Below, in pieces: positions 1,931 through 26,471 of a stretch of 26,471 nucleotides of DNA. The stretch is from positions 1 through 26,471 of the IMG/VR virus record IMGVR_UViG_3300031963_000811, one strand, 5' to 3'. A model generated the notes under the pieces. The model worked only from the letters and a program-made list of their open reading frames with translations. It did not search any database and was not told the DNA's origin. This stretch comes from a virus. A program made the translations under genes and the position numbers. The first letter of the stretch is position 1; every line of letters begins with the position of its first letter.

Positions 1931-4212
1931 TGCCAAAAGCCTCACCGATTCGGACAAGTTTTAATGCCGGCGAATTGTCTCCGCTCATGGATGGCCGCGT
2001 CGATGTTGCGAAATACAGCAACGGCTGCAAAGTCCTAGAAAATTTTATCCCGACCGTGCAAGGCCCGGCCGTGCGCCGTGGTGGCACGCGCTATGTCGCC
2101 GAGGTCAAGAGCAGCGCCAATCGCACTTGGCTGGCTCATTTCGAGTTTTCCAGCACGCAGTCGTTTGTGCTTGAGTTCGGCAATCAGTACATTCGCTTTT
2201 TTTTCAACCGCGGCCAACTGTTGTCGGGCGGTTCGCCATACGAGATCGTCTCGCCGTATCTGCTGGCCGACCTGACCAATGCCGACGGCGGTTTTGCGAT
2301 CGACATGGTGCAATCGGGCGACATCATCTACATGGCGCATCCGAGCTATCCGCTGCAGAAGCTCTCGCGCCTGGGGAATACCAACTGGACGATCACGGCG
2401 GTCGATCTGCTTAACGGTCCGTTTAAAGATCAAAACTCCGATCGGACCAGGACAATGTACGCATCGGCCACGACCGGCACGATCACGCTGACGGCCAGCT
2501 CGGCGACGTTTACGTCGGCCATGGTCGGCAGTTACGTCTATCTGGAACCGTCGGACCTATCGAATGTAAAGCCTTGGTATGCTGGCCAGGAATTTACGAC
2601 CAATCCATTTGGCGTGTTACGTCGCTCTGAGGGCAAGACATATACCTGCACCACGAATGGCGTGCCGAGTTCTGGCAAGGTTTGGCGCACCGGCGGCGAC
2701 AAGCCGGTGCATACCTACGGCACGCAGGCTGATGGCGATGCCGGTGTGATTGCTGGCACGGTGGTTGAGCGCAACGGCCTTGATTGGCTGTTTGTCGACA
2801 ACGGGTTTGGCTACGTCAAGATTACCGCTTTTACCAATTCAACAACCGTCACGGCTGTCGTGCAGGGCAACAACCCGTTGCCAGGCGGCGTCGTCGGATC
2901 CACCAAGGCGACATTCCGCTGGGCTTTGGCGGCATTTTCGGCTGTTGAGGGGTATCCAAGCAAAGTGACTTTTTTCCGCGAGCGATTAGCGATGGCGAAA
3001 GGCCAGCAGCTGTTTTTCTCGGTGGCCGGCGATTTCGAGAATTTTGCAGCCAAGGACGACAGCGGCCTGGTGACGGCCGACATGGCCATTAGGGCGACGA
3101 TTTCATCTGACCAGGTAAACCAGGTGTCGTGGCTTGCGCCGTCAAACGCGTTAATTATTGGCACAACCGGCGGCGAGTTCGCCTGCATGGAAAACACGAC
3201 AAACGAAGCATTTGCGCCTGGCAACATAAAAATCGAGCAGCAAACATCGGACGGCAGCCGGGCCATTGTGCCGGCGCGCGTCGGGTATTCGACATTGTTC
3301 GTGCAGCGGTCTGGCAAAAAGCTGAAAGAAGCGGCCTATAACTTGCAGCAAAACGGATATATCACGAACGATCTGACGGTCTTGTCCAATCACATTGCCG
3401 GCGACGGGATCCTGCAAACTGCATGGCACCGCGAACCGTATGCCGCGTTGTGGTCGGTGCGCGCTGATGGTCAGTTGCTGGGATTTACGTTTAACAAAGA
3501 ACAGGACGTGGTCGGCTGGCACCGGCACATCATTGGCGGCGACGGTGTCGTCGAAGCGGTGGCGGTCATTCCATCGCCGGACGGCACGCAGGACGATCTT
3601 TGGATGATTGTCCGTCGCACGATCAACGGCGCGACAAAGCGCTATGTCGAATATTTGAACCGCGCATACGATCCAGAGCAGGACACGCAGGCCGATTGCT
3701 TTTATGTCGACGCTGGGGCGACCTATTCGGGCAGCCCGACGACGACGATTAGCGGCCTGGGCTACCTGGAGGGCAAGACGGTGCAGGTGCTTGCCGACGG
3801 CGCTGCGCATCCAGATCGGACCGTGGCAAGCGGATCGATCACGCTGCAGCGCTCTGCTAGTAAGGTCCAGGTCGGCTTGCCTTGTTTGGCGACGCTGCAA
3901 ACTAACCGGATCGAGGCAGGCGCTGCCGACGGCACCGCGCAGGGCAAAACCAAGCGCATCAACAAGGTTGTAATTCGTTTCCTTAATACGCTGGGCGCGT
4001 TGGCTGGGCCTGACGCCAATACGCTCGACACGGTGGAATTCCGCACGCCGGAAGATCTGATGAACCAAGCGCCGCCGCTGTTTACCGGCGATAAGTTGAT
4101 CGAATGGCCAAGCGGTTACGATTTTGACGGGTATGTGATGGTGCGCCAGGCGCAGCCGCTGCCAATGACGGTGGTCGCTGTAATGCCGCAGCTGCATACG
4201 TTTGACAGATGA
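1930..4212 (+). CDS. Tail tubular protein B-like tail nozzle protein (T7 gp12 family)
   Basis: Encodes 760 residues, similar to T7 gp12. The N-terminus has the family signature: FNAGELSPLMDGRVDVAKY, then LENFIPTVQGPAVRRGGTRYVAE. In such phages this protein forms the hexameric nozzle below the gp11-like ring, through which DNA leaves the virion. The remainder is long and beta-rich, with the region around residues 345-400 (FFRERLAMAKGQQLFFS) typical of this family. The ATG overlaps the previous TAA, and its stop overlaps the next gene's ATG (ATGA). A 406-codon antisense open frame across it looks like a by-product of composition. Confidence 0.88.
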   Translation: MPKASPIRTSFNAGELSPLMDGRVDVAKYSNGCKVLENFIPTVQGPAVRRGGTRYVAEVKSSANRTWLAHFEFSSTQSFVLEFGNQYIRFFFNRGQLLSGGSPYEIVSPYLLADLTNADGGFAIDMVQSGDIIYMAHPSYPLQKLSRLGNTNWTITAVDLLNGPFKDQNSDRTRTMYASATTGTITLTASSATFTSAMVGSYVYLEPSDLSNVKPWYAGQEFTTNPFGVLRRSEGKTYTCTTNGVPSSGKVWRTGGDKPVHTYGTQADGDAGVIAGTVVERNGLDWLFVDNGFGYVKITAFTNSTTVTAVVQGNNPLPGGVVGSTKATFRWALAAFSAVEGYPSKVTFFRERLAMAKGQQLFFSVAGDFENFAAKDDSGLVTADMAIRATISSDQVNQVSWLAPSNALIIGTTGGEFACMENTTNEAFAPGNIKIEQQTSDGSRAIVPARVGYSTLFVQRSGKKLKEAAYNLQQNGYITNDLTVLSNHIAGDGILQTAWHREPYAALWSVRADGQLLGFTFNKEQDVVGWHRHIIGGDGVVEAVAVIPSPDGTQDDLWMIVRRTINGATKRYVEYLNRAYDPEQDTQADCFYVDAGATYSGSPTTTISGLGYLEGKTVQVLADGAAHPDRTVASGSITLQRSASKVQVGLPCLATLQTNRIEAGAADGTAQGKTKRINKVVIRFLNTLGALAGPDANTLDTVEFRTPEDLMNQAPPLFTGDKLIEWPSGYDFDGYVMVRQAQPLPMTVVAVMPQLHTFDR

Positions 4213-4634
4213 TCGTGCTGCCGTTTGAAGCTGGTCATTTGCAGCTGTTGTCGTTGCAAGAAAACCAGCTGCATTTCCAGCCGTTGTTTGCAAGACCAGA
4301 GTACGGCGATTGGTTAGAAAAAAGTGGACCGGCGTTTTCTGCAGCTGTTGGCGATGAGATAATTGCATCACTAGGAATCACGCCGCAGTGGGAGAATAGA
4401 GCTGTGGCGTGGGGTCTGATCGGTAAACAAGCGAGGCGGCATTTCGTGCCGTTGACCAAAGCGATCATGCGGTTTTTGGATCTGTGCGAGTACCGCCGCA
4501 TTGAAACGCCGGTCGATGTTGGGTTTGAGGAAGGCGATCGTTGGGCGACGATGCTGGGGTTTGAGCGCGAAGGAACGATGAGAGCGTTTATGCCGGACGG
4601 CCGCGACTGTCATCTTTACGCAAGGGTTAAATAA
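4209..4634 (+). CDS. GNAT-like small internal virion protein (T7 gp13 type)
   Basis: Encodes 141 residues, about the length of T7 gp13. The pattern of strands and helices resembles an acetyltransferase (GNAT) fold: EIIASLGITPQW, then VAWGLIG, a helix rich in hydrophobic residues around 75-92, and the final MLGFEREGTMRAF strand-turn typical of GNAT C-termini. The acetyl-CoA loop (Q/R-x-x-G-x-G/A) is not clear, so catalysis is doubtful. The family is linked to assembly of the internal virion core or tail. It begins in an ATGA overlap with the gp12-like gene and ends in a TAATG overlap with the gp14-like gene. Confidence 0.75.
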   Translation: MIVLPFEAGHLQLLSLQENQLHFQPLFARPEYGDWLEKSGPAFSAAVGDEIIASLGITPQWENRAVAWGLIGKQARRHFVPLTKAIMRFLDLCEYRRIETPVDVGFEEGDRWATMLGFEREGTMRAFMPDGRDCHLYARVK

Positions 4635-18441: not shown

Positions 18442-19212
18442 TTGCCATTAACTAAAGTAGACGCGCAACTTCTTGAGGGCGCAATAAACGCTAACTCCTC
18501 CGGCAACGTAGGCATTGGTACGAGTTCGCCAACAACCAAACTTAACATTGTTGATGGGTCTGCGACTGTTAATGTTCGGCTAGAAAGTGGTTCTGTAGTA
18601 GGCCAATATTTTGCGTCATCTTCTGGTGGTGCTGTATTTTTAGACACTGCTAGTTCGCACCCGTTGGTATTTAGAACTAACACCACCGAACGTATGCGTA
18701 TCGACACCAACGGCGTAATCACTTCAACGCTTGGTGGTATGCAGGTCATCTCTGGTACAGCGGTAACTGCATCAGGCACAAGCGTTGACTTCACCGGCAT
18801 ACCGTCGTGGGTTAAGCGCGTTACGGTGATGTTTAGTGGTGTTAGTTCAACCGGAGCCACAAACAAACTAATTCAAATCGGCTCAACATCTTTTGCTACA
18901 AGTGGATACATGAGCAGCAGCGCGTTAATACAAACAACCTCTGTTACTGCGGTTAGTTCAACGGCTGGTTTTATAGTTTTTGCAAACGCTGCGGCAGATA
19001 TAATCTACGGAACAATGACACTTGTTAATGTGTCTGGTAATACTTGGATTAGTAATCACATGGTCGTAGCAGACCAGACTAATGACTATAACATTTATGG
19101 TTCTGGAAGTAGTTTAACGGCTATTTCTGGTGTTCTAGATAGAGTTCGGATCACTCATGTAGGCGGCACAGATACATTTGACGCTGGAACCATCAACATC
19201 ATTTATGAATAG
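18442..19212 (+). CDS. Second tail fibre / receptor-binding protein, low GC
   Basis: Encodes 256 residues from TTG 18442, preceded by AGGGA at 18431-18435. Residues 20-36 (SGNVGIGTSSPTTKLNI) and ERMRIDTNG at 83-91 are the typical beta-repeat segments of phage fibre proteins. The C-terminal 150 residues form a Ser/Thr/Val-rich beta domain (VDFTGIPSWVKRVTVMFSGV) that is probably the receptor-binding tip. There is no anchor domain, so it must attach to another tail part. Five sampled 60-base lines hold 20-27 G+C each, well below the ejection genes (37 of 60 in one line), which suggests recent acquisition. Confidence 0.75.
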   Translation: MPLTKVDAQLLEGAINANSSGNVGIGTSSPTTKLNIVDGSATVNVRLESGSVVGQYFASSSGGAVFLDTASSHPLVFRTNTTERMRIDTNGVITSTLGGMQVISGTAVTASGTSVDFTGIPSWVKRVTVMFSGVSSTGATNKLIQIGSTSFATSGYMSSSALIQTTSVTAVSSTAGFIVFANAAADIIYGTMTLVNVSGNTWISNHMVVADQTNDYNIYGSGSSLTAISGVLDRVRITHVGGTDTFDAGTINIIYE

Positions 19213-19214
19213 TC

Positions 19215-19436
19215 ATGGACACGCAGATTCTCTTCAACATCGCGGTGGCAATTGCGGGCTTCTTCGGCGGTTGGATACTCAACAACATCCACAAATCGAT
19301 TGACCGGTTGGATGTCGACGTGCGTGCCATGCCCCACACCTATGTCAGCCGCGAAGACTACCGCGACGACATGCGCGAAGTGAAGGATATGCTTGGCAAG
19401 ATTTTTGATCGGCTAGAGGCCAAGCAAGACAAGTGA
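19215..19436 (+). CDS. Small single-membrane-segment protein
   Basis: Encodes 73 residues from ATG 19215, three bases after the fibre gene. One hydrophobic helix (about residues 5-24, ILFNIAVAIAGFFGGWIL) is followed by a charged, probably coiled-coil cytoplasmic part with regular Asp/Arg/Leu spacing (DYRDDMREVKDMLGKIFDRL). It stands at the head of the lysis-region block. Small proteins of this design occur next to lysis genes in many phages and could be holin-related or a membrane anchor. The function is not known. Confidence 0.65.
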   Translation: MDTQILFNIAVAIAGFFGGWILNNIHKSIDRLDVDVRAMPHTYVSREDYRDDMREVKDMLGKIFDRLEAKQDK

Positions 19437-19437
19437 G

Positions 19438-20127
19438 GTGGATCCGCTAACCTTACTTGCAGCTGCTAACGCTGCGGTCGCCGCGGTCAAAGCCGGATGC
19501 AAACTTTACAAAGACATAAAGGGCGCAGCCGGCGACGTAAGCGATGTATTGAAAGATCTGAAGGAGCAGTACAACAAAATAGTCGATCCAACGCCTGCGC
19601 AAAAAATGCAATACAACGCTGAAGTACAGCGCGTGCAAGAAATTGCGAAGTCTGATCCGAACGACGTATTTACGGACATCGGCAACCAGCTTGGCGTATT
19701 GATGGATTCTTATGATGCAATCAGTAAATTGTTTTTGAAAGAACAGCTGGAATCGAAACAGGTTTATAAGGGCGAGGAAAGTATTGGTCGCAGGGCATTG
19801 AAGCGAATACTAATAACGTCCAGGCTTGATGCAATGTTGACAGAGATACGCGAAACAATGGTGTTCCGAGCGCCGCCGGAATTGGGCGCATTGTGGGGCA
19901 AGTTTGAAGAGATGTGGCAGCGCATCGTTGCCGAGCAGGAGGCAGCTCATGCGGAAGAACTTAGACTAGCTCAGATAGCATCATGGCGACGCAGAAAAAG
20001 AATAGCGGAAATCAAGTCAAAGGTGGCATGGGTTTCAGCAGTAGTTTTCGTAGTTCTTTGGGCGGTGGGTCTAATGTGGCTAACAATGAGAAGCGCGATG
20101 ATGAGAACGTCCCTTGGTCACTTTTAG
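19438..20127 (+). CDS. Conserved-looking phage protein with C-terminal membrane helix
   Basis: Encodes 229 residues from GTG 19438, immediately after the upstream TGA. It has an Ala-rich N-terminus (MDPLTLLAAANAAVAAVKAG), a long charged helical middle and a C-terminal transmembrane helix (about residues 201-217, WVSAVVFVVLWAVGLMW). I recall very similar N-termini in proteins near lysis genes of marine phages, function unknown. Its last 145 bases also code, in another frame, for the start of the following membrane protein. A tail-linked or membrane-linked role is possible. Confidence 0.7.
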   Translation: MDPLTLLAAANAAVAAVKAGCKLYKDIKGAAGDVSDVLKDLKEQYNKIVDPTPAQKMQYNAEVQRVQEIAKSDPNDVFTDIGNQLGVLMDSYDAISKLFLKEQLESKQVYKGEESIGRRALKRILITSRLDAMLTEIRETMVFRAPPELGALWGKFEEMWQRIVAEQEAAHAEELRLAQIASWRRRKRIAEIKSKVAWVSAVVFVVLWAVGLMWLTMRSAMMRTSLGHF

Positions 20128-20288
20128 TAGTGGTCATGGCCGTGTTACTAATGTTCTTTATTATCATGCCGATCCTGGCGTTCATGTACTACGACATGTA
20201 TTTTGCAACACAAGCAGCGGTAGCAGAAGTCCAGAAAATGAAAGAGTTACGGCGCGATATTTTGCAAGAAAGGATGTACGGTAAATGA
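19983..20288 (+). CDS. Single-pass membrane protein overlapping the upstream gene
   Basis: Encodes 101 residues from ATG 19983. A second start at ATG 20028 (after AAAGGTGG) would give 86 residues and has the better ribosome site. A polar Ser/Gly/Asn N-terminus is followed by a hydrophobic helix (about residues 45-68, WSLLVVVMAVLLMFFIIMPILAF) and a short charged tail. It shares 145 bases with the preceding gene in a different frame, and its stop overlaps the endolysin ATG. The conserved tail (YYDMYF, VQKMKELR) looks like that of proteins I recall in marine phages. A holin-like or anchoring role is possible. Confidence 0.65.
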   Translation: MATQKKNSGNQVKGGMGFSSSFRSSLGGGSNVANNEKRDDENVPWSLLVVVMAVLLMFFIIMPILAFMYYDMYFATQAAVAEVQKMKELRRDILQERMYGK

Positions 20289-20938
20289 TCACGTTGGCAC
20301 AGTTCAAGAAGTTTGCCCCGCATACCAAATATGCACAACAATGGTATGACACTCTGTTTAGCCCGCAGACTGAGCTGGGCGGCAAATCGCTGTTAGATGA
20401 ATACCAGATCAACACACCAAAGCGCGTCGCCGCATTCCTGGCGCAATGCGCGCATGAGTCTGGTGGCTTTGTGTTTGTCACCGAGAATCTAAACTATAAC
20501 GCGTCTGGTCTGATGCGCGTGTTCCCGAAATATTTTCCTAGCATGGACCTGGCCAAACAATATGAGCGCAATCCAAAGAAGATCGCTAGCCGGGTATATG
20601 CTAACCGCATGGGCAATGGCGATGAAACCAGCCAAGAGGGTTTCGCGTTCCGTGGTCGCGGGATTTTGCAGCTGACAGGCAAAGACAACTATTTCTGGTT
20701 TGGTGCTTCACTTGAGATGACACCGGAGCAGGCATCGGAATACCTTGAGACATTCGAGGGTGCAGCGCAGAGCGCTTGCTGGTTTTGGGAAACGAACAAG
20801 TTAAACACGCTGGCAGACGCTGGTGACATAAAACAACTTACGCGCAGGATTAACGGCGGTTACATCGGGCTTGCAGATAGGGAGCATCATTATGAAATTG
20901 CGTTGGCTATGTTTGATAGTGGCAGTCGTTTGGCTTAG
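20285..20938 (+). CDS. Endolysin, glycoside hydrolase family 19 type
   Basis: Encodes 217 residues. The GH19 chitinase/lysozyme-like pattern is clear: AAFLAQCAHESGGF with likely catalytic E58, TENLNYNASGLMRVFPKYF, RVYANRMGNGDE, the FRGRGILQLTGKDNY substrate-cleft segment, and TRRINGGYIGLADR near the end. It cleaves the glycan of peptidoglycan to release phage. There is no signal peptide or N-terminal membrane anchor, so export through a holin is expected. Its ATG lies in an ATGA overlap with the membrane-protein gene, and its 3' end hides the start of the next lipoprotein gene. Confidence 0.9.
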   Translation: MITLAQFKKFAPHTKYAQQWYDTLFSPQTELGGKSLLDEYQINTPKRVAAFLAQCAHESGGFVFVTENLNYNASGLMRVFPKYFPSMDLAKQYERNPKKIASRVYANRMGNGDETSQEGFAFRGRGILQLTGKDNYFWFGASLEMTPEQASEYLETFEGAAQSACWFWETNKLNTLADAGDIKQLTRRINGGYIGLADREHHYEIALAMFDSGSRLA

Positions 20939-21143
20939 TGGCTGCGAGCGCTTTCGGTATTTTTGCCAGGATCCTGAAAATTGGGATAAGCCAAAATGCC
21001 AGCGGCCGCGATGCGCTGTAACTGGAACCTGTCCGGATCAATTGCTAAAACCGGAAGTGCTGAAGGAGGAAACAAATGAACCCACTAAAACTAATAAGCC
21101 AGTTCCTTGCAATGACGCAGGAGCAGCACGATGCAGTAATTAA
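20892..21143 (+). CDS. Small phage lipoprotein
   Basis: Encodes 83 residues from ATG 20892, which has GGGAG at 20880-20884 seven bases upstream. The earlier in-frame TTG at 20871 would give an unusual longer leader and is rejected. MKLRWLCLIVAVVWLSGC is a lipoprotein signal peptide with lipobox LSGC (C18). The mature part is Cys/Pro-rich (FRYFCQDPENWDKPKC). It overlaps the endolysin by 47 bases and the holin candidate by 68 bases in other frames. I recall such lipoproteins in lysis regions of marine phages. The role is unknown, possibly in the outer-membrane step or in superinfection exclusion. Confidence 0.75.
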   Translation: MKLRWLCLIVAVVWLSGCERFRYFCQDPENWDKPKCQRPRCAVTGTCPDQLLKPEVLKEETNEPTKTNKPVPCNDAGAARCSN

Positions 21144-21540
21144 GTTTTGTATTGCTGTCACGTTCTGCTGCACCGTGATAATCATGGTGGGCGTGAGCTT
21201 GTACTCGGTTGTATTCGTCGAGCAACCGCAAATGATGGCCCCGGCTGACAAGCAATTTTTTCTAATCTTGTCCGATATGTCAAAGTACATCCTCGGAAGT
21301 TTGGCGACATTACTTGCTGTCAAGGGTAAAGATGCGCTCCAGCAGTTTGTGCCGCCTGGTCTATCGAGCAAAGAAGATCGCGACGATAAGCCAACACCGC
21401 CAGCACCGAAGTCGCCAGCACCAGGTCACGCGCCGGTACGCATGGAACCGACCATTGATCCAATAAGCGCACCAGGTAGCGTCGCAGGTTATGGCGGCAA
21501 ACCAGCGCCTGTCCAACCACCTCACCCGGAGATTAGCTAA
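21076..21540 (+). CDS. Holin candidate with proline-rich cytoplasmic tail
   Basis: Encodes 154 residues from ATG 21076 after a perfect AAGGAGG site. Two hydrophobic helices are seen (about residues 22-48, KFCIAVTFCCTVIIMVGVSL, and 65-83, FFLILSDMSKYILGSLATL), followed by a Pro/Ala/Gly-rich polar tail of about 60 residues. A two-helix protein between an endolysin and spanins is the usual holin position. The long tail is atypical for holins. The family I remember from marine phages shares the core but its function is not settled. The stop overlaps the next ATG (TAATG). Confidence 0.7.
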   Translation: MNPLKLISQFLAMTQEQHDAVIKFCIAVTFCCTVIIMVGVSLYSVVFVEQPQMMAPADKQFFLILSDMSKYILGSLATLLAVKGKDALQQFVPPGLSSKEDRDDKPTPPAPKSPAPGHAPVRMEPTIDPISAPGSVAGYGGKPAPVQPPHPEIS

Positions 21541-21710
21541 TGAAAAATTTAATTGCACTTATTGCGTTTGTGCCGCTGGTCCTGTTTGCTGCTGAGACAA
21601 AGAAAGTTTGCAACAAACAAAAAGACAACAAGGGCAAAGAAGTCCAGGTTTGCAAAGATGTCCGGGTGCATAAGAAACTAGACAGCGCCACCAAGGTGCC
21701 ACCAAAGTGA
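21540..21710 (+). CDS. Small secreted protein of the lysis region
   Basis: Encodes 56 residues from ATG 21540, which shares one base with the previous TAA. A cleavable signal peptide is likely (MKNLIALIAFVPLVLFA with AAE after it), leaving about 40 mostly basic residues with two Cys (VCNKQKD and VCKDVRVHKK). Its stop overlaps the GTG of the spanin gene (GTGA). It has no obvious lipobox, so it would be periplasmic. No family is recognised. Coupled translation on both sides supports a real gene despite its length. Confidence 0.65.
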   Translation: MKNLIALIAFVPLVLFAAETKKVCNKQKDNKGKEVQVCKDVRVHKKLDSATKVPPK

Positions 21711-22189
21711 CTGCGTTCTTTAACCCTTGGGTGCTTCTGACGTTGGTCCTGGCGGTTGCCGGTGCGGCTGGCGCTGGGTATTACAAGGGCCACGACGCAG
21801 GCAAATCCCAAGTCAAGGCTGAATGGGCGCAGGAAAAAGCGGAGCAGTTTGCTGATCACGCAAAGCGCCAGGATGAGGCGCGCCAGCGAGAACAGCAGCT
21901 GCAAACAACGGCTGATAATTTGAGGCAGGAGAAAGACCGTGAAATCCGTAATCTTAATGCTCGCGCTACCGCTCTTACTAACAGCATGCGCGACCGGCCG
22001 AGTCGCGCCACCGCCGAAGCCGGTGGATTGTCCACGTCCACCGGTCCTGGATCCTCTGCCGCAGGATGTTCTGGAAAAGAGCTTTATCGAGAGACTGCAG
22101 AAGATCTTGTCCAACTAGTCAAGGACGCCGACGAGCTTAGATTAGCGTTGAAACAATGCTACTCGCAATACCAATCGTTGCCTAAGTAG
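21707..22189 (+). CDS. Rz: Rz-like inner-membrane spanin (i-spanin)
   Basis: Encodes 160 residues from GTG 21707. An N-terminal membrane helix (about residues 8-26) is followed by a long periplasmic coiled coil (about 45-95, KAEWAQEKAEQFADHAKRQDE...) and a C-terminal part with CSGKELYRETAEDLVQLVKDADELRLALKQCY. This is the design of lambda Rz, which pairs with the outer-membrane Rz1 to fuse the two membranes in the last step of lysis. The Rz1 gene lies inside it in another frame. The gene ends just before the terminator of the whole rightward block. Confidence 0.85.
   Translation: MTAFFNPWVLLTLVLAVAGAAGAGYYKGHDAGKSQVKAEWAQEKAEQFADHAKRQDEARQREQQLQTTADNLRQEKDREIRNLNARATALTNSMRDRPSRATAEAGGLSTSTGPGSSAAGCSGKELYRETAEDLVQLVKDADELRLALKQCYSQYQSLPK
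21927..21931 (+). promoter_or_regulatory. Shine-Dalgarno AGGAG for the embedded Rz1 gene
   Basis: AGGAG sits inside the Rz-like gene, seven bases before the GTG at 21939. It is the main evidence that the embedded frame is translated. Confidence 0.7.
21939..22118 (+). CDS. Rz1: Rz1-like outer-membrane spanin lipoprotein, embedded in Rz
   Basis: Encodes 59 residues from GTG 21939 in a frame different from the surrounding i-spanin gene. The protein has a lipoprotein signal peptide (MKSVILMLALPLLLTAC, lipobox LTAC, C17) and a proline-rich mature part (RVAPPPKPVDCPRPPVLDPLP) with a short charged end. A nested proline-rich lipoprotein is the classic lambda Rz/Rz1 arrangement. Mature o-spanin would be 43 residues and would join the i-spanin coiled coil across the periplasm. 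Confidence 0.88.
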   Translation: MKSVILMLALPLLLTACATGRVAPPPKPVDCPRPPVLDPLPQDVLEKSFIERLQKILSN

Positions 22190-22195
22190 GTTGCC

Positions 22196-22230
22196 AAGCG
22201 CCTGGCTCCTCTCCTTGTCAACAGGCGCTT
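22196..22230. other. Perfect 9-bp inverted repeat between convergent operons
   Basis: AAGCGCCTG at 22196-22204 pairs exactly with CAGGCGCTT at 22222-22230 around a 17-base loop. It is followed on the plus strand by GATTTT only, so it is a weak terminator alone, but it lies eight bases before a strong one. It could reinforce termination from the right-going operon or protect a transcript end. Confidence 0.6.
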
Positions 22231-22237
22231 GATTTTG

Positions 22238-22263
22238 CCCCGGCCAATAACCGGGGTTTTTTT
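22238..22263 (+). terminator. Intrinsic terminator at the end of the structural/lysis operon
   Basis: CCCCGG (22238-22243) pairs with CCGGGG (22251-22256) over a 7-base loop, followed by seven T residues (22257-22263). It lies after the spanin gene. The last T residues form part of the stop codon of the minus-strand HTH gene. No U tract follows the hairpin in the leftward direction. Confidence 0.88.
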
Positions 22264-22489
22264 ACCCTCGTTGACCTAGCATTGCTTTGATCTGGTCTAC
22301 TGGTATATCAACGCTTTCATGAATCGCCAGGATTAAATCAGCGCTCATTGGCCGCTGCCTATTGCGAACCCGGCTAATCAATGACGGCTCTTTGCCAAGC
22401 ATGTGGGCCAGGACCGCATCATTCTTGGCGTTCAACTTTTCGCGCGCCAGGTCCAGGATTTTATGGGGTGTCAATTTCCTTCCGTTCAT
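22262..22489 (-). CDS. Small helix-turn-helix (Cro/CI-like) regulator
   Basis: Encodes 75 residues. Residues about 22-60 fit an XRE/Cro-type helix-turn-helix: NDAVLAHMLGKEPSLISRVRNRQRPMSADLI, with the recognition helix at SLISRVRNR. There is no dimerisation or cleavage domain, so it is Cro-sized. Its start overlaps the upstream gene's stop (ATGA), and it is the last gene of the leftward operon, ending at the terminator. It could bind the palindrome over the operon promoter (25921-25933) and feed back, but that is inference only. Confidence 0.8.
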   Translation of the reverse strand: MNGRKLTPHKILDLAREKLNAKNDAVLAHMLGKEPSLISRVRNRQRPMSADLILAIHESVDIPVDQIKAMLGQRG

Positions 22490-22683
22490 TTGTTGTATTT
22501 CTCCATGATCGATCGTTTGCGCCAGGCTGTAATACCGCGTGGCTGAATTGGTTTATTGTTTCGTTCGTTGTGAACTATTGATGCGTAAGTGGCAATCAAA
22601 ACAATGCCGATTACAAATAGTCCTATGACGACTATGCCTGCAATGGTAATGGCAAGAATAGCGGCCAAGATTTGTAGCATCAT
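22486..22683 (-). CDS. Small membrane protein, unknown
   Basis: Encodes 65 residues. Two adjacent ATG codons (22683 and 22680) can serve, with AAGG just upstream. One long hydrophobic segment (about residues 3-34, rich in Ile/Val/Ala/Gly with a possible turn) is followed by a basic tail (WRKRSIMEKYNK). It is a probable inner-membrane protein with the tail in the cytoplasm. Placement between two small DNA-binding proteins in an early operon gives no clear role; exclusion or host-takeover functions are possible. Confidence 0.6.
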   Translation of the reverse strand: MMLQILAAILAITIAGIVVIGLFVIGIVLIATYASIVHNERNNKPIQPRGITAWRKRSIMEKYNK

Positions 22684-22690
22684 GCCGGCC

Positions 22691-22963
22691 TTAAAACAGG
22701 ATGACTTTAAAAACGGGCTTGATCATCTTGCCGGTAATCGAGCATTTGCGCGGTGGATCTTCTCGGACCAGGTCCAGGCTTAACAGCTCGTTGACGCGAC
22801 CGCAGACCGAGGACAGTTCCAGGTTGCAAACCCTGGCTAGCTCTCGACGTGAGTAGCTTTCCATTGGATCCATGACATTTAGAATGTGCTGTGCTTGCTT
22901 GCCGATCTTTCCTGTATCGCGATGCTCATGGTAAGCAATGATTGATGTTTCGGCGACGCTCAT
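22691..22963 (-). CDS. Winged-helix-like small DNA-binding protein
   Basis: Encodes 90 residues. Residues about 20-66 look like a winged helix: SRRELARVCNLELSSVCGRVNELLSLDLV, where the second helix pair is typical of DNA-binding helices. A wing-like C-terminal part holds two Cys (one in the DNA-binding helix and one in RKCSITGK). Small proteins of this type are common in phage early regions and may repress or modulate transcription. The ATG is in an ATGA overlap with the upstream gene. Confidence 0.65.
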   Translation of the reverse strand: MSVAETSIIAYHEHRDTGKIGKQAQHILNVMDPMESYSRRELARVCNLELSSVCGRVNELLSLDLVREDPPRKCSITGKMIKPVFKVILF

Positions 22964-23163
22964 AATTTATGCCCCCTTGTTGTCCGGCAACGCTCCCTGT
23001 CCTGGTGGCTAAAGTCCGGGCTAATTTCTGCAACGCTGCACGCCAGGCGCGGCTCGGTAGTAATTGCTTTAGATGCAAAGTACAAACTTGCCAGGGCGAT
23101 CGCCGCATAAAAACAAATTGCTGCAATTTCAGGTGCCGTTATAGGTTTATGTTCTTTATTCAT
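22960..23163 (-). CDS. Small single-membrane-segment protein, unknown
   Basis: Encodes 67 residues from ATG 23163, preceded by AAAGGA. One hydrophobic helix (about residues 11-30, PEIAAICFYAAIALASLYFA) is followed by a polar tail with a few Cys. It overlaps the upstream gene by eight bases and the next by four, which supports translation of all three. No family is recognised. Confidence 0.6.
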   Translation of the reverse strand: MNKEHKPITAPEIAAICFYAAIALASLYFASKAITTEPRLACSVAEISPDFSHQDRERCRTTRGHKL

Positions 23164-23425
23164 TTTTGTCCTTTGATAAGTTCCAAAGTAGCAACATGTC
23201 GTCTTTCAACATGGTTGCCGCTGTCGGGCCGCGTTTGGTTTCGACTGCTGCTATGAACTCCCTGCGCTTCACCAAGGGCCACCGCAGTACCGTTCTCGCC
23301 TCGCATTCGCGCCTCCACATCTCGCTGTTCTTTTCTGATCCGAGCAAAAGTTTTGCGAATGTTTGTATCGGAGGCGGGAACGTAGGCTTTTCCTGTAAGG
23401 AGAGTGCTGCCCGCCTCTTTGCCAT
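23156..23425 (-). CDS. Small phage protein, DUF7696-like
   Basis: Encodes 89 residues. Its ATG shares a base with the stop of the RecT-like gene (TAATG), which chooses this frame over a longer overlapping one (to 23495) that lacks such context. The middle WRRECEARTVLRWPLVKRREFIAAVETKRG segment resembles the Cys/Arg-rich pattern I associate with the DUF7696 family, whose role is unknown. It may help the recombination proteins made just before it. Confidence 0.55.
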   Translation of the reverse strand: MAKRRAALSLQEKPTFPPPIQTFAKLLLGSEKNSEMWRRECEARTVLRWPLVKRREFIAAVETKRGPTAATMLKDDMLLLWNLSKDKNE

Positions 23426-24177
23426 TAGAGCGCCTGTTCATCGGCCTCTGGTTCACGGATAACTGCCGCCTGGGCGCGCGCCTTGGCCATTGCAATTTTG
23501 CGCAGATTTTCCGGCAGCTGGCGCATTGCCGGCCGCAGGTTGTCTAGTTCTTCAATTGACGTAGCCTTGGCGATCTTGGCATTGATTTCGGCGGCGTCGG
23601 CTTCAGCCTGGTCTGGCGATTGTTCGACGACATCAGCTGGCCCCAGGTCGATTGTCACGGGCTGCGTCGCTGGCGCTGCAGCTGCTGGTGCCGGTGGCTT
23701 TTTGTCAAAATCTTCGGCTTCCTCTGGTGTGTACACGCCGACGGCAACGCCTGGGAACACGGTGCGGATCCCTTCGCTAATCACGCGGGCGCGCAGCATT
23801 TGGCGTGGGTACTGCCGCCAGGTTGGATTCTTGGTTAGGCCCGCGTTTTCGGCCATAGTTATTGTCCAGGTAATTTCTACGCTACCGCCGGCCGGGTGTG
23901 AGACGACGGCGCTGACTGCGGTGTCGGTGTACTCGGACCATTTTACCGTGCCGCCGGCCTGCTGGAAACGCGCCAGCATGGCGTCGGCCTTAAGGGTAGG
24001 CTTGCCGTTGATGACGTGGTAATCGCGCGCCGCGATCGCTGGGTGCATTCCTTCAGCCTGGCTAATTAGCATTAGGGCCATTGCCTGGTCCGGTGTGCGC
24101 ACGCCAAACAGGTTAGATTTGGCGACGGCCATTGCCATGCGCTCGATGTCGGTGACTGTCATTAGTTCGTTTTTCAT
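23425..24177 (-). CDS. RecT-like single-strand annealing protein
   Basis: Encodes 250 residues from ATG 24177 after a GGAG site. Core residues 1-155 match the RecT family: GVRTPDQAMALMLISQAEGM, INGKPTLKADAMLARFQQAGG, TWTITMAENAGL, NPTWRQYPRQMLRARVISEGIRTVFP and YTPEE. These proteins coat single-stranded DNA and anneal complementary strands in phage recombination. A Pro/Ala-rich linker (about 161-172) and a charged helical tail (190-250) follow. The start overlaps the stop of the YqaJ-like nuclease gene (ATGA), and the two make an exonuclease/annealase pair as in Red or RecET systems. Confidence 0.87.
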   Translation of the reverse strand: MKNELMTVTDIERMAMAVAKSNLFGVRTPDQAMALMLISQAEGMHPAIAARDYHVINGKPTLKADAMLARFQQAGGTVKWSEYTDTAVSAVVSHPAGGSVEITWTITMAENAGLTKNPTWRQYPRQMLRARVISEGIRTVFPGVAVGVYTPEEAEDFDKKPPAPAAAAPATQPVTIDLGPADVVEQSPDQAEADAAEINAKIAKATSIEELDNLRPAMRQLPENLRKIAMAKARAQAAVIREPEADEQAL

Positions 24178-24800
24178 TTTGATTTCTCCATAAGGGTTGC
24201 AACCATCGTGTCTACATCAATCAAAAATTTGCGGATCTCGGTTTCTAGGCCGGCGATATAACTGTCATTGCGGCCGATGCGTTCGACGTAGAGCTGCAAC
24301 GCAGGCGGCATGCGTGGGTCAAATGAGATGAAATCACACCATTGCCGGCCGGTGATCCAGAGCTGGCCCTGGACCTGGGCGACGTGATCTTCTGGCATGC
24401 CGTCCATCCAGGTCATCACATGGACCGAGCTGTTATATGGGCATTTGATTTCGATCAGGCCATCCCAATCAACCAGGCCGTCGGGCGATGCGCCGGCGTC
24501 AAGCTCTTGGTGCTGAATGAATCCGGTTTCCTCGACTTGCAGCTGGCGGCGCTGTTCGTAAACAATGCGCGCGCTGGCTTCGTGCGTCACGCCCCATTGC
24601 ATTGCGCTATTGCTGTAGTGAGGCGTCGCTGATTTGGTCAGGCGCTCGGTGGCAATGTCTACCAGGTAATTGATGCGCGCCGCGGCCGGGCTGCCGTTCT
24701 TGAGCTTGGCCATCACGTCTTTGAAACGCGACGCTGTGGCCTTGCCTACGCGCGCCTGGAACCATTCCGCGGTGCGCTGTTCGTCTGTAATTGTGTCCAA
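24174..24800 (-). CDS. YqaJ / lambda-exonuclease-like recombination nuclease
   Basis: Encodes 208 residues from TTG 24800, with AGGAG six bases upstream (24807-24811). Motifs are E74 in WGVTHE, D107 in GASPDGL, then E117-I-K119 ten and twelve residues later, the metal-binding arrangement of lambda exonuclease. The later QVQGQLWITGRQWCDF helix fits too. It should degrade one strand of DNA ends in the 5' to 3' sense and hand the other to the adjacent RecT-like protein. Length is close to lambda exonuclease (226). Confidence 0.88.
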   Translation of the reverse strand: MDTITDEQRTAEWFQARVGKATASRFKDVMAKLKNGSPAAARINYLVDIATERLTKSATPHYSNSAMQWGVTHEASARIVYEQRRQLQVEETGFIQHQELDAGASPDGLVDWDGLIEIKCPYNSSVHVMTWMDGMPEDHVAQVQGQLWITGRQWCDFISFDPRMPPALQLYVERIGRNDSYIAGLETEIRKFLIDVDTMVATLMEKSK

Positions 24801-24992
24801 TTAAAACTCCTCTTTGATTACTGAAACTCGGATCGCGTCGGGGTGTTGCTCCAGCAATTCCTCGACCAGGACGGCTGAAAACTCATGGTCGGATTTGCCG
24901 CTAACACGTCGGCCGTTTGGCAAAATGACTGTGTAGGTAAATCGGAACGGGCCTTTTTGCGATAATGGAAACGGTACTATTTGAGCGTTCAT
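24801..24992 (-). CDS. Small early protein, unknown
   Basis: Encodes 63 residues. The ATG at 24992 overlaps the upstream stop (ATGA). It has a beta-hairpin-like N-terminal half (FRFTYTVILPNGRRVSGKS) and a helix (EFSAVLVEELLEQHP), suggesting a compact fold. The nuclease ribosome site lies in its last codons, so translation is coupled. No family or function is recognised. Confidence 0.6.
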   Translation of the reverse strand: MNAQIVPFPLSQKGPFRFTYTVILPNGRRVSGKSDHEFSAVLVEELLEQHPDAIRVSVIKEEF

Positions 24993-25204
24993 TCGTCATC
25001 TCCAGAGTAACGAGCGTCAAACATTGCATCGATGCGCGCCTGTTCGCGGTATTCAAAACGGCGTTCTTCAATCTCGGCTGCGCAGCTGGTCATGATGGCT
25101 AGTACATCTTCGAGCGGTAGCCTGGTCCATGCTGCTGTGATGTTTACCGGGATACCGCAGGCCAGGTGGTGAATCGCGTCATACTTAAAATTTGTTGTCT
25201 GCAT
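24989..25204 (-). CDS. Small early protein, unknown
   Basis: Encodes 71 residues from ATG 25204 (MQTTNFKYDAIHHLACG), preceded by GGAG. An in-frame TTG four codons upstream coincides with that site and is rejected as the start. The protein is mainly helical with an acidic end (ARYSGDDE). It contains a segment that could be a helix-turn-helix-like pair (about 15-45), but the resemblance is weak. It overlaps the next gene by four bases. Confidence 0.6.
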   Translation of the reverse strand: MQTTNFKYDAIHHLACGIPVNITAAWTRLPLEDVLAIMTSCAAEIEERRFEYREQARIDAMFDARYSGDDE

Positions 25205-25315
25205 TATTTTCTCCAATCAATTCAAAGTGCCGGTTGCGGGCCGGCGTCGGCTAGGTGGGGAATCGGATCTGCTTGCCAGGCAGTCGCCACGCGCCACCAT
25301 TACGACCGCTGTACA
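25205..25315. other. Non-coding gap with small hairpin
   Basis: No gene is supported here. A 5-bp stem (GCCGG 25229-25233 with CCGGC 25241-25245) is not followed by a T tract in either direction. A 27-codon minus-strand frame starting with ATG has no ribosome site. The stretch includes the leader and GGAG site (25211-25214) of the downstream gene. Confidence 0.6.
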
Positions 25316-25882
25316 TTACGCTGCAATCCTGCCGACGCTGTTATAACCGTAACCGTCGTCGCCCAAGGAGCTAACGCTGGCCGCTGTCGGGCTGACGGCC
25401 ATGTCGTCGAAGCTGTAATTTGACGCGATATTCATGGCTATTTCGTCCAGGGTCATGTTGCCAATCATTGGTTTAGCGCCGCCGGTGTATTCGATCCACG
25501 CGCCAAACTGGCTGTCGATTACTTTCATGTTGTTGACGACACCATACTTGGCGGCCGTCCATTCCAGCGTCGACTGCAAAAACTCGGCGGTGTATTTCCG
25601 CTCGGTAAACACAAAGTCAGCGCCAAACGAAACTTCCTCGCCGTTGATCGAGCTGTAGTTGCTGCCCTGGTAGTCGGTCATGCCGTCGAAGTAGCTGCCC
25701 TCGAACCGCTTAACGATGGCGTTGACCTGCTTGCTGTTCGGGCCGTTGGTCCATTTGACATTGATGCTAGCGCCGCCGGCGTAGGTATTAGACCTGACGC
25801 TAAACTTTACGCCAGGGAATGATTCTTTGAGCGACTGCCTAATGAGCTTGGCAGTCTCAGCGCAGGTTAAATATTTTTTCAT
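25316..25882 (-). CDS. Protein with large polyvalent-protein domain 29 (LPD29)
   Basis: Encodes 188 residues from ATG 25882, with AGGAG seven bases upstream. Residues 1-95 fit the LPD29 pattern: KYLTCAETAKLIRQSLKESFPGVKFSVRS, YAGGASINVKWTNGP, QVNAIVKRFEGSYFDGMTD. The rest is a mixed helix/strand region with a Gly/Tyr-rich end (LGDDGYGYNSVG). LPD domains occur in phage and plasmid polyproteins linked to DNA processing or defence, usually fused to other domains. Here it is alone. It is the first gene after a strong promoter (start site about 36 bases upstream). Confidence 0.75.
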   Translation of the reverse strand: MKKYLTCAETAKLIRQSLKESFPGVKFSVRSNTYAGGASINVKWTNGPNSKQVNAIVKRFEGSYFDGMTDYQGSNYSSINGEEVSFGADFVFTERKYTAEFLQSTLEWTAAKYGVVNNMKVIDSQFGAWIEYTGGAKPMIGNMTLDEIAMNIASNYSFDDMAVSPTAASVSSLGDDGYGYNSVGRIAA

Positions 25883-25920
25883 GGCGATTCTCCTGTTCAG
25901 TTAAAAATGAAATACGACAA

Positions 25921-25933
25921 TGAGATTATCTCA
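25921..25933. promoter_or_regulatory. Perfect 13-base palindrome over the -10 box (putative operator)
   Basis: TGAGAT-T-ATCTCA reads identically on both strands apart from its centre and covers the whole -10 hexamer of the leftward promoter. A dimeric regulator bound here would block RNA polymerase. The small helix-turn-helix protein at 22262-22489 is one candidate binder. Confidence 0.55.
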
Positions 25934-25953
25934 ACACTGTTGCCAAACGTCAA
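25925..25953 (-). promoter_or_regulatory. Sigma-70-type promoter of the leftward early operon
   Basis: On the minus strand TTGACG (25953-25948) and GATAAT (25930-25925) are separated by exactly 17 bases. Each matches five of six consensus bases. A TGA just before the -10 box makes an extended -10. The -35 box overlaps the stop of the preceding gene. Expected transcript start is about 25918. Confidence 0.75.
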
Positions 25954-26258
25954 GCGGCCTCTGGTAATTTTGCTTGTTTAATTATGTCGTCAATCTCAAA
26001 CAGCGCCTCGGCCTGCTGGCGCTCGATTACCTGCTTGGTGGCACGTCCTTCGCTGATTTTGACGCGCACGGACCACATGCTATAGGGCGCGTAGAAATAC
26101 ATGCCGGCCGGACCGACGCGCTCTTCGCGTGCGATCGTGGTGATCAGGCCGTCGGCGCGTTTGACGGTAATGACAGCGACGCGCATCGTGCTAGTCACCT
26201 GGACATAGGTTTGGGCAAACCAGCCAAAATTTGCACTTTTCGAAATAGTTGTTTCCAT
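25950..26258 (-). CDS. Small early protein, unknown
   Basis: Encodes 102 residues from ATG 26258, with AGGAG shortly upstream. Residues 15-75 show alternating strands (VQVTSTMRVAVITVKRADGLITTIAREER), followed by a helix (TKQVIERQQAEALFEIDDIIKQA). No domain is recognised. Its stop codon lies inside the -35 box of the next promoter, so the following gene has its own start of transcription. This gene must be read from a promoter outside the window or upstream of 26303. Confidence 0.65.
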   Translation of the reverse strand: METTISKSANFGWFAQTYVQVTSTMRVAVITVKRADGLITTIAREERVGPAGMYFYAPYSMWSVRVKISEGRATKQVIERQQAEALFEIDDIIKQAKLPEAA

Positions 26259-26281
26259 GTTTAGATCTCCTGGTCAGTAAT

Positions 26282-26295
26282 GGGGCCGAAGCCCC
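26282..26295 (-). other. UUCG-tetraloop hairpin between two early genes
   Basis: On the minus strand GGGGC-UUCG-GCCCC forms a five-pair stem with a very stable C(UUCG)G tetraloop, in the 44-base gap between the 26303 gene and the next ribosome site. No U tract follows, so it is not a good terminator. It could stabilise or mark an RNA end. Confidence 0.6.
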
Positions 26296-26302
26296 GGTAA
26301 AA

Positions 26303-26464
26303 TTAGGCGCGCGGTACGGTGCCGATCAGCTTGCCTTCCATCACTTTGAACAGCAGACACTTGGCGCGGTTCAGCGACTGCCTGGCTCCTTCAGCGTCAC
26401 CAAAAGCAATTTGCTCTTGGGCGTCGGACATTAAGCCAGCTATTACCATGTTTGCGCCGGTCAT
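26303..26464 (-). CDS. Small early protein, possibly 5'-truncated by the window end
   Basis: The frame ends at TAA (26305-26303). From ATG 26464 it encodes 53 residues with helical character (DAQEQIAFGDAEGARQSLNRAKCLLFKVM). No ribosome site is visible in the seven bases left before the window edge and the frame stays open upstream, so the true start may lie outside. The function is not recognised. Confidence 0.5.
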   Translation of the reverse strand: MTGANMVIAGLMSDAQEQIAFGDAEGARQSLNRAKCLLFKVMEGKLIGTVPRA

Positions 26465-26471
26465 TTTGTAA

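Follow-up and report, generated by a model that had tools for sequence, protein, structure and literature searches.

Which protein, if any, reads a near-consensus promoter whose -10 box lies within a perfect palindrome? This question is raised by a 26,471-base IMG/VR virus record (the whole stretch of DNA that was analyzed, hereafter the window), where such a promoter is found near the right end on the minus strand. A first-pass annotation made from the sequence proposed a repressible early promoter, closed into a negative feedback loop by a small helix-turn-helix (HTH) protein encoded at the end of the same operon. The proposed kind of mechanism stands, whereas two of its details do not: the assignment of the head promoter and the identity of the binder. 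Our best reading is a Cro-only early regulon with extra promoter-operator copies.

The minus-strand order is CTTGACG-TTTGGCAACAGTGTTGA-GATAAT-CTCATTGTCG, followed by an AGGAG site and the ATG of the LPD29-domain gene (Table 1). Fourteen sigma-70-type matches in the whole window score at least 9/12, and the predicted promoter at 25953..25925 tops them with 10/12 hexamer letters, a 17-base spacer (within the accepted 16–18) and an extended -10; the earlier description of TTGACG-17-GATAAT as the best promoter of the window is therefore borne out in sequence and coordinates. The 13-mer palindrome occurs once in the window. Perfect 6-1-6 palindromes as such are ordinary (11 in the window, 8.3 expected), whereas one placed on the -10 of a promoter of at least 10/12 arose in none of 100 dinucleotide shuffles and is the sole such case in the window. 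It had been said to cover the -10 exactly; it is perfect and does lie on the -10, but is not exactly centered there (palindrome center 25927, -10 at 25925-25930). Because the 13-mer sits just upstream of the expected start, it falls outside the transcript of its own promoter, on which ground an RNA hairpin or terminator was rejected as its function. A search for related phage DNA records covering window positions 1-25000 returned none at the megablast level.

Table 1. Features of the promoter region and of the operon it feeds (window coordinates).
Feature	Position	Strand	Basis or remark
-35 hexamer TTGACG	25948..25953	-	includes the TGA (25952-25950) that ends the upstream 102-aa gene
-10 hexamer GATAAT	25925..25930	-	TGA directly before (extended -10)
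Perfect palindrome TGAGAT-T-ATCTCA	25921..25933	.	core of the proposed Cro-type operator
Full 17-bp predicted operator, family register, GTTGAGATAATCTCATT	25919..25935	-	consensus GTTG-N9-CAAC
Expected transcription start	25918 (about)	-	inferred from -10 position only
AGGAG ribosome-binding site of the LPD29 gene	25890..25894	-	sequence
LPD29-domain protein, 188 aa, first gene behind promoter	25316..25882	-	PF18847 E 9.3e-27
75-aa gene, operon member, no function assigned	24989..25216	-	
63-aa gene, operon member, no function assigned	24801..24992	-	
YqaJ-type exonuclease	24174..24800	-	PF09588 E 1.1e-26; phrog_149
RecT-like annealing protein	23425..24177	-	PF03837 E 1.4e-7; phrog_561
75-aa HTH protein, operon end	22262..22489	-	phrog_638 E 3.1e-8
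102-aa gene upstream of promoter, same direction	25950..26258	-	
Cut 79-aa gene upstream, same direction	26303..26470	-	complete in L002 at 638-877

The claim that this is an early promoter holds in part. A repressible promoter leading into the LPD29, YqaJ nuclease and RecT-like genes is supported by the Pfam matches in Table 1, but it is not the head early promoter; it is internal, since two same-direction genes precede it and since the head promoter lies further up, beyond the window edge, in the close relative L002 (contig 3300044701_001103; 97.3% identity to window 19142-26470). There, one more small gene is followed by a head promoter, TTGACA-18-TATATT, which bears a weaker operator copy (TGATATATTCTCA), and then by a divergent gene for an 80-aa HTH protein. 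A second relative, L204, matches the last 156 bases of the window at 99.4% and has the same divergent region. In both, some 1 kb separates the promoter from the upstream 80-aa HTH gene, which points away from the operon and is the first gene of a leftward operon that in L205 continues with a RusA-like gene (by our reading), an SSB-like protein (a Pfam match for the L003 homologue) and probable replication genes. Two further features of the window operon were seen. On the plus strand at 22237-22257, a GC-rich hairpin with a T-run, likely a terminator, separates the convergent late genes from the LPD29/RecT operon, and on the minus strand at 25251-25316 a 21-codon frame (MYSGRNGGAWRLPGKQIRFPT) overlaps the stop of LPD29; sequence resembling it is found after LPD29 in L003 and after the head promoter in L205.

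The 80-aa protein resembles the Cro repressors of lambdoid phages. Its match to the P22_Cro family (PF14549) has an E-value of 1.2e-6 and 28.6 bits, just under the 30.2 cut-off, and a profile of 19 relatives matches Xfaso 1 Cro (3bd1; E 1.6e-7) and P22 Cro (3.9e-5). The predicted structure, of pLDDT 90.3 except for about ten N-terminal residues, has a Cro fold as modeled: the top Foldseek match is Xfaso 1 Cro (3bd1; E 3.3e-3), followed by DNA-bound N15 Cro (7.8e-2), with a probability of 1.00, although no match reached an E-value of 0.001. Predicted palindromic operators at divergent early promoters, its own included, are a further Cro-like trait. The first ATG falls at the gene's own predicted operator (L003 4147-4163; L002 293-309), so that translation probably begins 27 bases further on, at an internal ATG of a leaderless mRNA. 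The protein would then probably be read from this internal ATG as 71 aa, which fits the poorly modeled N-terminal residues. The L002 protein is 96–100% identical to the HTHs of L204, L205, and L003.

L003, in which LPD29 is 65% identical, has four exact TGAG-N5-CTCA sites (0.12 expected): on the head (main early) promoter, on the LPD29 promoter, on a third promoter after LPD29, and on that of the HTH gene itself. All three operon promoters read TTGACA-17/18 with TGTTGAGATAATCTCA or CGTTGAGATAATCTCA; the first has a spacer unlike those of the second and third, and inverted repeats in the spacers (TTGACATTTGTCAA) are not conserved. In the window promoter and in the second and third promoters of L003, the -35 contains the TGA stop of the preceding gene. 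L205 lacks LPD29 and the genes before it, and its head promoter directly joins the stretch that trails LPD29 in the window. The head-promoter site is degenerate (TGATATATTCTCA) in L002, L204, and L205, though the L003 sites are perfect, and in the L002 contig TGAG-N5-CTCA with one mismatch allowed is not clearly enriched (five occurrences vs. four for the reversed control). Related words occur elsewhere in these genomes. In L205 (8507-8523) and L204 (3055-3071), another operator-like word, flanked by a TTGACG -35 and a weak -10, is found right where a gene of the leftward operon ends and ahead of a 57-aa gene; in L003, a related word at 1593 precedes a gene that we read as GIY-YIG-like.

LPD29 itself was considered as the carrier of the site and rejected: of the 200-bp stretches preceding the gene at 80 LPD29 loci, only that of L003 contains a convincing copy, the copies upstream in L008 and L031 look like chance, and that of L002 has two mismatches. 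Among these 80 loci, L002 and L003 alone yielded the HTH, so the site goes with the HTH and not with LPD29. From a scan with a profile of six HTH relatives, the best 80 of 117 viral loci were taken; they contributed 38 distinct HTH (cro) promoters to an ungapped alignment. In these, GTTG is found at -19 to -16 (the four letters in 37, 36, 37, and 37 of 38), followed by a CA[TA]CAT-like -10, and 37/38 have the fixed-place GTTG within a GTTG-N9-CA[TA]C word over the -10, at a place where a sigma-70 promoter needs nothing. The spacing from -10 to ATG is 6 nt in 30/38, which suggests a leaderless HTH (cro) mRNA. On the divergent side, GTTG-N9-CAAC (at most one mismatch) is present in 31/38 loci within a 105-bp stretch, 60–165 bp from the ATG, the pattern and the stretch both having been picked after viewing these sequences. 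The mean in shuffled sequences was 2.40 and the maximum 6, and eleven control offsets gave at most 5/36. The 38 loci form 20 sequence clusters, 16 of which have the divergent-side match; the word is absent from the divergent side in seven loci (L306, L309, L314, L321, L325, L329, and L343).

When a near-consensus promoter was required together with the operator, 18 matches were found in 243 kb of operon strand from the best 80 of 117 loci, against one in 739 kb of control sequence. Fifteen lie at 104–139 bp, and three are internal copies at 599–1163 bp that precede a small gene and a YqaJ-type exonuclease (our reading of the translation), the same circuit position as that of the window promoter. 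With CATT as their outer right half (in the window two positions off the consensus CAAC), the window and L002 sites escape this strict scan. A wide pattern scan returned at least 120 stretches and was set aside as mostly chance, given the short pattern. When recognition helix and operator letters were compared by eye, the outer GTTG and the helix were both conserved, and the inner letters followed no clean rule. Our literature search found no earlier report of the operator GTTGAG-N5-CTCAAC.

The window site can be recovered from sequences outside its own clade. A symmetric matrix was built from 21 divergent-side (operon-side) and 19 HTH-side sites, none of them from the window's clade. Among 26,455 places, window 25919-25935 comes first with the operon-side matrix and second with both the HTH-side matrix and that from all sites. 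With the combined matrix, the three expected sites come top in L002 (13.2, 12.6, and 12.1; next 8.9) and the four exact sites come top in L003. The place that outscores the promoter site with the HTH-side and combined matrices is window 4353-4369 (GATGAGATAATTGCATC), within the structural gene 4209-4634. In contig G004 the surrounding block is nearly identical, although the gene overall is 83% identical.

We therefore weighed which protein would read the palindrome. The 75-aa HTH protein at the operon end, which had been proposed to bind it and close a negative loop, is a small HTH protein (phrog_638) of the same operon, kept at 96% identity in L002 and L205. Of the 80 HTH loci (the best of 117, many truncated within about 4 kb), a single one (L316, 36% identical) has a relative of it. 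All 80, by contrast, encode the 80-aa Cro-type HTH, with the same motif on its own promoter, and nothing links the 75-aa protein's own promoter to the site. The proposal of a small phage HTH repressor is thus supported in kind, while this candidate for the binder is improbable; the 80-aa Cro-fold HTH is the likely ligand of the predicted site. It is very improbable that the palindrome is a mere by-product of a good promoter recently duplicated within the operon, with no protein reading it. The second and third L003 copies do have alike spacers and flanks, and strong extended -10 promoters have TGTTGA-GATAAT in common, but the CTCA downstream of the -10 has no promoter role and is nevertheless retained in all perfect copies despite differing spacers. 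Moreover, the HTH promoters of distant relatives have the operator word again, in a different register, and this difference in position relative to the -10 between the two promoter types indicates that the operator does not follow from promoter sequence, as does the ability of a matrix from distant relatives to pick out the window site.

A host regulator, rather than a phage protein, might be proposed as the reader because similar words are found on integrase promoters of another phage family (L083, L227, L237-L242, and others). In L083 and L227, the integrase is likewise preceded by the word TTGAGATAATCTCA with a promoter, and in many of their relatives the integrase promoter carries variants (GTTGAGACAATCTCAAC, GTTGCGAGAATCTCACC); inspection by eye found no such word on the integrase promoters of L248, L257-L259, and L261. 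More broadly, in the temperate family L237-L263 a conserved degenerate palindrome lies on the -10 of integrase promoters, though not in all, which suggests that the integrase of this family may be under repressor control. At least three members have distant relatives (32–35%) of the 80-aa HTH, detected in L242, L244, and L262 at E-values of at most 1e-5. In L242, the gene of this distant HTH and a divergent 193-aa repressor-like gene flank ATTGAGATTGACTCAAC; sites and HTHs of the same type thus occur together in another genome setting as well. Since the other family also has distant HTH relatives, a shared phage repressor family explains both sets of sites. In addition, the promoter with TTGAGATAATCTCA was found in 11 stretches from scattered phyla in genome_contigs (84,980 species), against about 7.5 by chance (a rough estimate from pattern length and collection size), and a host reader is accordingly highly improbable.

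We thus consider it very probable that the Cro-type 80-aa HTH, encoded beyond the window edge, binds the 17-bp operator on the window promoter as part of a wider circuit. The 13-mer would be the core of a 17-bp operator, GTTGAG-N5-CTCA(A)C, on which a repressor dimer would cover the -10 and shut out RNA polymerase. The repressor would act on its own promoter, with an apparently leaderless mRNA, on the main early promoter facing the HTH gene, and on extra promoter copies, the window promoter among them, within the recombination operon. All operator-bearing promoters would be open early in infection; as repressor accumulated, the recombination genes and the repressor itself would be turned down.

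Whether such a circuit belongs to a lysis-lysogeny switch was addressed by searching family records, several of which are fragments. No tyrosine integrase was found in 26 of these, compared with four positives among four records of a temperate comparison family; no S24 repressor/peptidase was found in 21, a search that a CI without S24 would escape, as does the 193-aa repressor-like protein of L242. No serine recombinase was found in 16 family records, and HTH_3 gave one weak match in 11. In L002 and L003, the interval from the HTH to the recombination operon contains no gene of repressor size. The records searched thus gave no sign of a CI-type gene facing cro or of an integrase, the components of a lambdoid lysis-lysogeny switch, and this seems to be a phage family with a repeated promoter-plus-site unit and without lysogeny genes. 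Limnohabitans phage DC33 (L211, PQ492659.1), which carries a 54% identical HTH, is described as forming clear plaques (PMC12195039); its record is filed as Inoviridae, yet the description is of a 39-kb phage with head and tail. It is possible, although we advance it tentatively, that strictly lytic tailed phages of about 40 kb keep Cro without CI or integrase as a Cro-only regulon, in which the unit has been copied to gene ends so that each early cassette has its own copy and can be swapped or lost there. A sign of copying to gene ends would be the -35 that contains the preceding gene's stop codon.

Cro is known from textbooks chiefly as the opponent of CI in temperate phages. A broad, largely metagenomic family with Cro and operators and no sign of CI or integrase could be used to ask what Cro does in lytic growth alone, and the analysis yields a ready operator motif together with dozens of natural predicted repressor-operator pairs for recognition studies. 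The resemblance to lambdoid Cro proteins (P22, N15, Xfaso 1, and a Pfl 6 prophage) includes a small Cro-fold HTH, divergent early promoters, palindromic operators over promoter elements and, as the sequences imply, autoregulation. In contrast to these systems, no integrase or S24 repressor was found in the family records, extra operator-bearing promoters occur within the recombination operon, the operator is GTTGAG-N5-CTCAAC, and each promoter has a single operator, whereas those of lambda are clustered in triplets.

Telomere phage PY54 is similar in that its Cro is reported to bind a single palindromic site and its cro and cI mRNAs to be leaderless (PMC4488713), a property suggested for cro here by promoter geometry. 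That phage is described as temperate, with a CI repressor and the Cro site at the cI promoter (PMC4488713), whereas the sites of the window family are on the promoter of cro itself and on those of the recombination operon. Mycobacteriophage stoperators are also comparable, as one repressor has several sites per phage genome. Stoperators, however, are reported to halt transcription elongation at numerous genome-wide sites with an asymmetric recognition sequence, while the window family has few sites, each palindromic and each on a promoter.
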